A stretch of DNA of 33,071 bases from Candidatus Gastranaerophilales bacterium. GTDB taxonomy: Bacteria; Cyanobacteriota; Vampirovibrionia; Gastranaerophilales; Gastranaerophilaceae. Position numbers and translations under genes: made by a program. The stretch lies in the NCBI GenBank assembly GCA_944325885.1, contig CALVBT010000013.1, positions 1 to 33,071 on the forward strand. Reading direction: 5' to 3'. The first letter of the stretch is position 1. Every line of letters begins with the position of its first letter. The notes beneath the pieces are model-generated. The model was not told where the DNA came from. It searched no databases and was given only the letters and a program-made list of their open reading frames with translations. Of the stretch, positions 113 to 15,238 are shown piece by piece.

Positions 113-2368
113 TTACAAAATATCTATCGGGTCGACATCGACAATAAGTTTTATATCCTCGGGTAATTTTATTTGTTTTACAAAAGACAAAACAAATCTG
201 TGGCCTTTTTGCCCCAATTTATTTTTAATCAAAATTTGAAAACGATAATGCTCCTGCAGCCGCTCGATTACGCAGGAAGTCGGCCCTAAAAGCTCAACAG
301 GTTCAATGAGAGCGTGCTGTTCCAATATATTTTTCAACCTCATTGCAATTTCCTGAGAGCTTCTTTCTGCCCTAAACTGATTTTTTGAAGAAATAACAAT
401 ACGAATAATCTGGCTAAATGGCGGATAGTCAAAATCTTCTCTCGCTTCGATTTCTGTTTTGTAAAAACTTGAATAGTCCTGATTTTTTGCTGTTTCAAGC
501 CCAAAAAACTCTGGGTTGTAAGTCTGAAAATAGACCTCTCCGAGGTTGTCGCCACGTCCGGCACGGCCCGCAACCTGAGTGAGCAATTGGAATCCCCTTT
601 CGCAGGAACGAAAATCCGGCAGATTAAAACCGTTGTCCGCATTTATAACCCCGACAAGAGTAACATTAGGATTGTCCAGACCTTTGGCCAGCATTTGTGT
701 ACCGATTAAGATATCAATTTTTCCGTTTCTAAAATCATTGAGTATCTGAATATGCTGATTTTTCTTAGCCATTGCATCGCTGTCCAGACGTTCTATTGTA
801 CAATCCGGAAACAATTTTTTTGCAATGATTTCTACCTTTTGGACTCCAGTACCGCAATTTCTCAATGCATCACTTCCGCATTTCGGACATGTTGTCACAA
901 GAGGCTCTTCATGCTCACAATAATGACATTTTAAAGTCTGTGTTTGGGAATGAAAAATCAACGGGATAGCGCACTTGGGACACTGGATAACCTCTCCGCA
1001 TGCCAGACACTGTGTATAGGTAGAAAATCCTCTGCGATTCATCAGAATAATTGTCTGCTTTTTATCCCTCAAATTTTTTTCTATTGCTCTAACCAATGCT
1101 CTGGAAAAAACACCGTGATTGGCTCTAAAATGCTCTTCTCTCATATCGATTACACGGACTTTTGCCATAGGGTAATCATTATAGCGTTTTTTTAGTTCAA
1201 GCAAATTGCCGGAATTCAAAGCCTTATAATAAGTATTTATATCAGGAGTTGCACTGCCCGAAAGCAAGGGACAGTCATTCAACTGTGCAAGTTTTTCCGC
1301 AACTTTTCTCGCATCATATCTCGGAGCAGGCATTGTCTGTTTATAAGAGCTTTCGTGTTCCTCATCAATGATAATAAGCCCTATGTTTTTTAACGGAGCA
1401 AAAACCGCCGAGCGTGCGCCTGCGAGTATATTTATTTCGTTATTTTTAATTTTATTCCATACATCAAACTTTTCTCCCTCAGAAATACTCGAATGCCATA
1501 TAGCAGTCTTTTCTGTACCGAAGCGTCTTGAGAGCCTCTGCGTCAATACAGAAGCCAGCGCAATCTCAGGAGCCAGAAACAAAACATTTTTCCCCTGCTC
1601 CAGCACCTTTTTTATTGCCTTAAAATACACCTCGGTTTTTCCGGAAGAAGTAACACCGTGCAGCAAAATCGAACAAAAAGACCCGAGCCTTTTCTCTATC
1701 TCTTCGTAGACGTGTTCCTGCTCCGGCATAAGCAAAGGAAACGGCTCCAGTTCCTGCTGTTTAAAAATTTCGAGCGGGTTTCTAAAAAGCTCCTGCTCAA
1801 AAACTTTCACACAGCCCAGAGTTTCCAGTTTGTTAATTGTTGCACGGGTAGTTTTGGCTTGTTTTTCAAAATCTATTAATCTTGTTTGCCCTTTTGATTT
1901 TAAAAGCTCCAAAATCTCAAGCTGTCTTTTTGTTGCGCCTTCAAAAGTTTTAAACTCGACAAATTTTTCCGACTGTGTTTTTTGCACACCGTTCAAAAAC
2001 TTCATCGGCACAGCACATTCTATGACATTCTGGATATTACAAAAGTAATAATCAGCCACCCATTCCAAAAATTTCAAATACTTTATATCAAAAATCGGAG
2101 TTTCATCAAGGATTTTGGAAATATTTTTTGCCTTTATCCCTTCTGCCAGATAATTTGAAAACCCGACAACATACGCATTGATAAGCCCCATTCTGCCAAA
2201 AGGCACCAGCACCGGATGCCCGATTTTTATCACAGGTTTCATCTCTTCGGGGATAAGATAGCTAAAGGTCTTTACTCCCAGCCCCTTTATGCAGGTAAGA
2301 ACAAGGGCATATTTATTCAACATGCCCTCTTGTTGTTCTTCAATTGTTACACAATTCTTATTCTGCAT
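113..2368 (-). CDS. priA: primosomal protein N' (replication restart DNA helicase PriA)
   Basis: PriA is the 3'-to-5' DNA helicase that recognises stalled forks and reloads the replicative helicase. In the 751-residue reading the Walker A motif GVTSSGKT is at about 238-245, the DEEH box at 335-338, and eight cysteines (454, 457, 463, 466, 481, 484, 494, 497) form the two zinc sites typical of PriA. Motifs V and VI follow (GTQMLAKG, QVAGRAGRG). Length fits the family. The start is uncertain. The first ATG overlaps the upstream PC4-like gene by 11 bp. An internal ATG at 2323 (MLNKYALV) matches the usual PriA N-terminus better, and neither has well-spaced ribosome binding sequence, so translational coupling is likely. 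It is cotranscribed with the PC4-like gene from the promoter near 2646-2673. Confidence 0.95.
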   Translation of the reverse strand: MQNKNCVTIEEQQEGMLNKYALVLTCIKGLGVKTFSYLIPEEMKPVIKIGHPVLVPFGRMGLINAYVVGFSNYLAEGIKAKNISKILDETPIFDIKYLKFLEWVADYYFCNIQNVIECAVPMKFLNGVQKTQSEKFVEFKTFEGATKRQLEILELLKSKGQTRLIDFEKQAKTTRATINKLETLGCVKVFEQELFRNPLEIFKQQELEPFPLLMPEQEHVYEEIEKRLGSFCSILLHGVTSSGKTEVYFKAIKKVLEQGKNVLFLAPEIALASVLTQRLSRRFGTEKTAIWHSSISEGEKFDVWNKIKNNEINILAGARSAVFAPLKNIGLIIIDEEHESSYKQTMPAPRYDARKVAEKLAQLNDCPLLSGSATPDINTYYKALNSGNLLELKKRYNDYPMAKVRVIDMREEHFRANHGVFSRALVRAIEKNLRDKKQTIILMNRRGFSTYTQCLACGEVIQCPKCAIPLIFHSQTQTLKCHYCEHEEPLVTTCPKCGSDALRNCGTGVQKVEIIAKKLFPDCTIERLDSDAMAKKNQHIQILNDFRNGKIDILIGTQMLAKGLDNPNVTLVGVINADNGFNLPDFRSCERGFQLLTQVAGRAGRGDNLGEVYFQTYNPEFFGLETAKNQDYSSFYKTEIEAREDFDYPPFSQIIRIVISSKNQFRAERSSQEIAMRLKNILEQHALIEPVELLGPTSCVIERLQEHYRFQILIKNKLGQKGHRFVLSFVKQIKLPEDIKLIVDVDPIDIL

Positions 2369-14658: not shown

Positions 14659-14814
14659 TTAGTGTTTTTTAATTTCTATAGGGACAGTAGCATATCTTGA
14701 GCAGCGATAAATAGCATTATCACTAAAACTTTTTTCTTCTTTTTCTTTTTCTTCTACCAAAAAATCATCTGCGTCTCGGCCGATTAAAAATCTCATAAAC
14801 ATTGGACTATACAT
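14659..14814 (-). CDS. possible very small protein, unknown
   Basis: A 51-residue frame from the ATG at 14814, with an AGGTG about 9 bases upstream. Product: a hydrophobic start (MYSPMFMRFLIG), a Glu/Lys-rich middle, and 'RCSRYATVPIEIKKH' at the end. An in-frame TTG at 14853 would add 13 residues. No family is recognised. Support is only the ribosome-site-like sequence and the empty position, so it may not be a gene. Confidence 0.25.
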   Translation of the reverse strand: MYSPMFMRFLIGRDADDFLVEEKEKEEKSFSDNAIYRCSRYATVPIEIKKH

Positions 14815-14920
14815 TAAAGAACACCTACACTTTCTACATATATATAAACACAAAAAACAAGAAATTTTTTCACGTAAACAAAATAATTTTTACAAAATTA
14901 ACAAAAATTGTTACAATCTA

Positions 14921-14944
14921 TCACGATTGTAGTAGTTATCGTGA
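14921..14944. other. inverted repeat in a gene-poor stretch
   Basis: A 7-bp perfect repeat TCACGAT / ATCGTGA separated by 10 bases, just after a TTGTTACAA palindrome (14908-14916). No gene is seen in about 14815-15086. The T-run needed for a terminator is lacking, so an operator or RNA stem is possible. Confidence 0.3.
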
Positions 14945-15004
14945 AATATCTCCCTATTAAACCCAAACCTAAGACCACACATGGCCAAGCACATAGCCAC
15001 ATAC

Positions 15005-15032
15005 TTGAATATTTGAAGAAATTGTTTATAAT
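15005..15032 (+). promoter_or_regulatory. possible antisense promoter facing the small peptide ORF
   Basis: Plus strand: TTGAAT (15005-15010), 16-bp spacer, perfect TATAAT (15027-15032). Transcription would begin near 15039 and run through the complement of the terminator and the peptide ORF. Caution: the TATAAT overlaps the complement of the terminator T-tract, so it may be a by-product of that sequence. Confidence 0.35.
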
Positions 15033-15092
15033 AAAAATATAGGGAAACGGTCTAAATGCCATAACATTTAAACCGTTGTTCGCCCCCTATAT
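15033..15092 (-). terminator. long intrinsic terminator overlapping the peptide ORF stop codon
   Basis: On the minus strand: a lower stem ATATAGGG / CCCTATAT (15092-15085 with 15044-15037), an upper 13-bp stem with one mismatch (15077-15065 with 15058-15046), a 6-base loop, then TTTTT. It would end both leuS readthrough and the small peptide mRNA. The TAG of the peptide ORF is inside the lower stem. Confidence 0.8.
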
Positions 15093-15161
15093 GAAGATTA
15101 ATAAAACTTTAAGAAGCGCATCTAGCACCACTAGAGCGCTTCTTATTATTTGTCTCTTCAT
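15087..15161 (-). CDS. candidate 24-residue hydrophobic peptide (type I toxin-like)
   Basis: A 24-codon ORF starting at 15161 with AGGAGGT, the strongest Shine-Dalgarno in this part of the window, 6 bases before the ATG. The product starts MKRQIIR and continues SALVVLDALLKVLLIFI, a single short membrane-type helix with a basic N-terminus. The layout, and loosely the L-x-x-LDA-x-LK-x-L pattern, recall type I toxins such as TisB; this is resemblance, not demonstrated homology. It lies 77 bases after leuS. ATATGAAGA at its start and TCTTCATAT at its end are perfect complements, and an internal AAGAAGCGC/GCGCTTCTT repeat folds most of the coding sequence. It could instead be a structured element that happens to contain an ORF. 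Confidence 0.4.
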   Translation of the reverse strand: MKRQIIRSALVVLDALLKVLLIFI

Positions 15162-15167
15162 ATACCC

Positions 15168-15212
15168 ACCTCCTCTCTGTCCTTTTCTTCGCCAGCATGT
15201 GACAGCGGAGGT
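15168..15212 (-). promoter_or_regulatory. anti-SD hairpin sequestering the ribosome binding site
   Basis: In the minus-strand RNA, ACCUCC (15212-15207) pairs with GGAGGU (15173-15168), and CUGUC (15205-15201) pairs with GACAG (15181-15177), leaving a 19-base loop. The GGAGGU is the ribosome binding site of the 24-codon ORF, so this stem would block translation. Such blocking is usual in type I toxin mRNAs. Confidence 0.55.
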
Positions 15213-15238
15213 TGGAGCTTACCCCAAAGGTATAAACG

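Follow-up and report, generated by a model that had tools for sequence, protein, structure and literature searches.

According to a paper of 2025, the known type I toxin–antitoxin systems were confined to Proteobacteria, Firmicutes and Tenericutes, apart from a candidate in Microcystis (PMC12390103). In par/fst (Fst/Ldr; pAD1 and its chromosomal relatives), a short mRNA encodes a small membrane toxin and the promoters are convergent; the Shine-Dalgarno (SD) sequence is hidden in a 5′ stem-loop, the 5′ end is paired within the mRNA, and the antisense RNA overlaps the 3′ part (PMC7472228). The aapA/IsoA systems of Helicobacter and other epsilon-proteobacteria combine a 5′–3′ long-distance interaction in the full-length mRNA with SD-hiding hairpins, a cis-antisense RNA, and several chromosomal copies (PMC6733600). 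Finally, msoT1/msoA1 of Microcystis, which a 2025 paper put forward as the first type I system from Cyanobacteria, has a 63-residue toxin with two predicted helices, and its named closest relatives are all in Cyanobacteria (PMC12390103).

We analyzed a stretch of 33,071 nucleotides from a Candidatus Gastranaerophilales bacterium (hereafter the window), whose minus strand at 15224–15029, behind leuS, is one copy of a family of conserved modules. With good confidence, judging from sequence, we interpret this family as a type I toxin–antitoxin-like module, in which an antisense RNA would silence the mRNA of a membrane peptide. When 99 related genomes were searched at the nucleotide level, several had clear homologues, near leuS in some and elsewhere in others, and a covariance model (R1) was built from an alignment of eight homologues. 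The parts of the window copy are as follows:

15029–15224, minus strand: whole conserved module, matching covariance models R1 (E = 1e-46) and R2 (2e-40), both of which include this copy among their building sequences
15218–15224, minus strand: conserved GGGTAAG motif, where the peptide mRNA is predicted to begin (a −10 box lies 6–9 nt upstream in many free-standing copies)
15214–15218, minus strand: long-distance pairing, 5′ arm GCUCC (covariation)
15082–15086, minus strand: long-distance pairing, 3′ arm GGGGC, immediately after the stop codon (covariation)
15207–15212, minus strand: anti-SD ACCTCC (sequence and covarying stem)
15168–15174, minus strand: SD AGGAGGT, 6 nt ahead of the ATG (sequence)
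15177–15205, minus strand: second stem of 5 bp within the SD hairpin, CTGTC (15205–15201) with GACAG (15181–15177), covarying in the alignment
15087–15161, minus strand: 24-codon ORF MKRQIIRSALVVLDALLKVLLIFI, predicted membrane peptide, putative toxin
15155–15164, minus strand: start-codon arm TATATGAAGA, pairing with the ORF end TCTTCATATA at 15088–15097
15110–15119 with 15136–15145: inner inverted repeat of the ORF, TAAGAAGCGC with GCGCTTCTTA
15025–15077, minus strand: intrinsic terminator of the peptide mRNA, arms 15077–15065 and 15058–15046, then CCCTATATTTTTATT
15005–15032, plus strand: predicted antisense promoter TTGAAT-16-TATAAT, 10/12 consensus bases
15039–15155, plus strand: predicted antisense RNA (antitoxin), about 115 nt, a 5′ hairpin then a terminator, ends approximate
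15110–15151, plus strand: antisense intrinsic terminator inside the ORF, stem 15110–15119/15136–15145, T-rich tail from 15143

The original prediction had placed a possible type I toxin–antitoxin-like module at 15033–15212. The place was right, but the module is slightly larger, covering about 15025–15224 with the antisense promoter starting at 15005. The minus-strand ORF, its ribosome site, the upstream ACCTCC, the second stem, and the two nested inverted repeats in the coding sequence are all present as described. The stop codon, by contrast, had been put within a strong terminator; a terminator does stand directly behind it, but the stop lies at the foot of the stem, outside the hairpin. 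Two features were absent from that account: the 5′–3′ long-distance pairing and the antisense, or antitoxin, half.

Downstream of the module, the window also contains an inverted repeat, TCACGAT...ATCGTGA (14922–14945), ahead of a small conserved ORF (14659–14853, minus strand) that begins MYSPMFMRFLIGRD...; relatives, G001, G005 and G022 for instance, have similar repeats and the same ORF start after leuS, and the repeat is possibly an operator.

Of 192 genomes of the order Gastranaerophilales, 122 had R1 matches (E ≤ 0.05), as many as 10 in a single genome; another genome had 12 by R2. Hundreds of family modules, that of the window being some 200 bases long, are found in gut Gastranaerophilales, mostly away from leuS, often directly 3′ of same-strand genes, and often as tandem copies, spaced about 290 nt apart. 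Among 292 genomes sampled across the phylum, 80 had a match and all 80 came from one Gastranaerophilales family, a restriction that doubles as a specificity control; the few matches that lie outside this family, elsewhere in the order or class, may reflect transfer or contamination. When the antisense-promoter pattern was run across 84,980 species, 53 stretches were returned, nearly all of which carry the module by R2, and their labels read Gastranaerophilales, Melainabacteria, cyanobacterium, uncultured or unnamed bacteria and, for one genome, Muribaculaceae. The genome with this last label (JAMPCZ01; loci L134, L148 and L157) has 12 modules and may be a mislabelled Gastranaerophilales assembly. 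No match was obtained in phage and plasmid records searched with one type A peptide, nor in viral contigs searched with one promoter-based pattern (0 matches); a second pattern gave four matches in viral contigs, none fitting the covariance model. In the window's own genome, four further weak matches were obtained (E 0.025–0.74), and the best of the four proved on inspection to be an ordinary terminator behind another gene.

Copies are patchy across genomes, and some have decayed (L012, L045, L081, L082 and L089). Apparent decay takes several forms: the antisense promoter is weakened in L010 (G007, behind leuS), the 5′ half is gone in L012 (G013, behind leuS), and the start codon is missing in L045 (G050).

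The peptide itself is conserved. Its main pattern is MxxxIIKxAIxxxIAxLxIILxxL, with 23–25 residues in most of 80 distinct aligned copies and a mean GRAVY of 1.57 for this main type. Across 61 distinct aligned coding blocks, frame 0 is free of stops throughout, codon position 2 is the least variable, and the proposed frame is the best conserved of the six (BLOSUM 2.00 per site, next best 1.04); the spacing from the SD to the peptide start is likewise fixed across copies.

We next consider the RNA fold. The window module has a folding energy of −80.6 kcal/mol, compared to −49.2 in dinucleotide shuffles (z = −7.1). In the alignment of 80 copies, which was fitted to the covariance-model structure and whose members are kin, so that the statistics on stems, promoters, terminators and codons are not independent events, 89.3% of stem cells are paired and 35 of 38 pairs have changed on both sides, while slid controls with the partner moved by 1–3 columns reach at most 51% pairing. 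Short ORFs are common, and this could be a small ORF with repeats that both arose by chance; conservation and covariation in 80 distinct aligned homologous copies already refute this reading, whose probability we put at next to nil.

The consensus fold also has a long-distance helix between the 5′ end of the mRNA and the bases after the stop codon. Its arms vary among copies (GCUCC, GUACC, GUUCC and others against GGAGC, GGUAC and GGAAC), yet it is 96.5% paired and all five pairs covary. The helix between the start codon and the ORF end, exemplified by AUGACCAAA with UUUGGUUAU, lies outside the covariance model and is hence independent of it; it averages 8.0 bp within copies, as against 6.0 bp between copies. 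The stop-codon region could instead pair with the terminator tail; this alternative helix is 92.5% paired but covaries little, and it and the long-distance pairing may be mutually exclusive.

The opposite strand has a promoter-like site, TTGACA-16/17-TATAAT or AATAAT, at one fixed position directly beyond the sense terminator in all 80 copies. It agrees with the sigma-70 consensus at 10 or more of 12 bases in 97.5% of the copies, compared to 2.6% of shuffles, and an antisense terminator lies within the ORF in 80 of 80 (mean score 16.5, compared to 6.4 when shuffled). An antisense RNA gene is therefore predicted for every aligned copy. The codon ATA accounts for 99 of the 114 isoleucine codons opposite the antisense U-tract, compared to 17 of 137 near the C terminus, counted over related copies. 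The predicted RNA folds as two hairpins and spans the mRNA 3′ UTR and most of the ORF; it overlaps neither the SD nor the start codon, which is a point against the proposed block of translation. The nested repeats of the ORF are explained by these predictions, one being the terminator of the antisense RNA and the other a lock on the start codon.

A sigma-70-like sense promoter is also present in many copies, often the free-standing ones, 6–9 nt ahead of GGGTAAG; counting all copies, 35% score at least 10/12, compared to 2.7% of shuffles. These promoters bear on whether the ORF is incidental and the module is a mobile or selfish element of palindromic form, or else a cassette that supplies a terminator behind genes. 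The element is indeed palindromic, often sits directly behind same-strand genes and, at leuS, takes the place of an ordinary terminator-like hairpin in a relative (G001). But the peptide is conserved in frame at a fixed distance from its SD, and nearly all copies retain the antisense promoter and many the sense promoter, which is more than any terminator cassette needs; we regard such an origin as very improbable.

The position behind leuS was compared among 21 genomes of the genus. A module or remnant directly follows the leuS stop in 10 of them, at least one remnant (G013) lacking its 5′ half, and none does in the other 11; the modules found there carry different peptides. None of the leuS copies scored (L038, L009, L010 and L018) has a recognisable sense promoter. 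The window copy lacks a good one (best 8/12), so its peptide mRNA would be made by read-through from leuS, if it is made. The window copy may be driven by such read-through, or it may be becoming a mere terminator, and its terminator probably now serves leuS. That this one copy is retired, and kept merely as the leuS terminator, is a tentative reading which we hold to be possible rather than probable, and one compatible with our explanation of the family: the missing sense promoters and the remnants at this site speak for it, but the window copy has an intact ORF and SD, has lost none of its stems and retains both its antisense promoter and its antisense terminator, and read-through from leuS could still transcribe it.

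The same RNA scaffold, in the same layout, also carries at least four further, unrelated peptide types: M(I/V)DKIIMLL..., ...ITEKALWLILLIIIAL..., ...LELLELFL.. and ...IKALVILEL.... A similar antisense terminator site lies within the ORF in these other peptide types as well. It appears somewhat likely that one RNA chassis in gut Gastranaerophilales bears at least five unrelated, interchangeable membrane peptides, each coding sequence holding the terminator of its antitoxin, so that conserved residues (e.g., the IIK motif) would be partly fixed by the opposite strand. At one locus (L016, G041:C24; match 1098–1320, minus strand), a type A copy whose 5′ leader has been swapped for unrelated sequence has as its neighbour another module, which encodes a different peptide, MILVLLLLCKQYKEKVPILEVLELFLFN.

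These peptides could also be regulators instead of toxins, acting for example on a membrane complex or in stress physiology under the same antisense control. All the evidence is anatomical, and the type D peptides (ending LELLELFL) are just mildly hydrophobic, both of which leave room for a regulator; however, a module that is patchily distributed, multiplied within genomes, arrayed in tandem and able to carry five unrelated peptides on a single scaffold looks more like one for addiction or stress than like a dedicated partner, and we consider a regulator unlikely.

The type I toxin–antitoxin-like reading of the original prediction is supported in homologues, where the peptide is conserved, each stem has compensatory changes, and copies unlinked to leuS occur, with an antisense RNA gene predicted in 80 of 80 aligned copies. 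What the sequences themselves show is the conservation of the ORF, the stems, the promoter-like sites and terminators, and how many copies there are and where they occur. Of the marks of a type I system, the modules have a small hydrophobic peptide gene with a ribosome site, a toxin mRNA fold that hides this site, as borne out by covariation, and a cis-antisense RNA gene whose promoter and terminator are predicted from sequence. By this architecture, as predicted, the modules are a new type I toxin–antitoxin family.

We propose the following mechanism, of which transcription, the pairing of the two RNAs, a role for RNase III, and toxicity are what we infer. The minus strand would yield a short mRNA encoding the 24-residue membrane peptide, whose translation would be locked three times: the SD is held in its hairpin with the anti-SD, the start codon pairs with the ORF end, and the 5′–3′ long-distance pairing adds a third lock. 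The promoter beyond the toxin terminator, facing the mRNA, would make the cis-antisense RNA of about 115 nt that ends inside the ORF. When abundant, this RNA would pair with the peptide mRNA, first at exposed hairpin loops, and silence it through duplex formation, perhaps with decay by RNase III, which the window's genome encodes. Pairing and silencing are suggested here by analogy with par/fst (PMC7472228) and aapA/IsoA (PMC6733600). If the antisense RNA dropped, the mRNA would be unlocked and the peptide would damage the cell membrane.

The family was previously unnamed and has no match in Rfam, Pfam or NCBIfam. In Rfam release 15, the window and seven other loci gave nothing over the gathering score, and the matches listed were far below it. 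Five to seven peptides had no Pfam match up to E = 10, a search in which HMMER filters limit sensitivity at 24 residues, and five peptides had none over the NCBIfam cut-off, with merely sub-threshold TatA matches for one variant. A literature search of partial coverage returned no type I system described for Gastranaerophilales or Melainabacteria. If our interpretation is correct, these modules are a large further type I family, in gut bacteria related to cyanobacteria. The copies and their covariation suffice for the definition of an RNA family together with a model to search for it, and a toxin coding sequence that doubles as the antitoxin terminator, with peptides swapped on one scaffold, would offer a route to studying how modules gain toxins.

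Compared to the described systems, the predicted antisense RNA resembles msoA1 in covering the 3′ end of the ORF and the 3′ UTR (PMC12390103), whereas the peptide has 24 residues against the 63 of msoT1, and covariance-model matches in the sampled phylum are limited to one Gastranaerophilales family. With par/fst, the module has in common a small-toxin mRNA, convergent promoters, a hidden SD, a paired 5′ end, and a 3′-overlapping antisense RNA. Unlike Fst/Ldr, the new peptide lacks a Pfam match, a PXXXG motif, and a charged C-terminal tail, and no Pfam or NCBIfam model makes it an Fst/Ldr homologue. Where Fst/Ldr has one shared bidirectional terminator, the new module has two, with the antisense one inside the ORF, and whereas the Fst/Ldr antisense covers the start site via the direct repeats DRa/DRb, the one predicted here ends before the start codon. 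The 5′–3′ interaction, SD-hiding hairpin, cis-antisense RNA, and several copies are shared with aapA/IsoA. In that system, which sits in another phylum, the SD is trapped by the long-distance interaction, whereas here it pairs locally and the long helix connects the 5′ end with the bases that follow the stop codon; the contrast is one of RNA layout and phylum. The new module is closest to par/fst and aapA/IsoA and has their logic in common, but lacks the features of membership tested for each.
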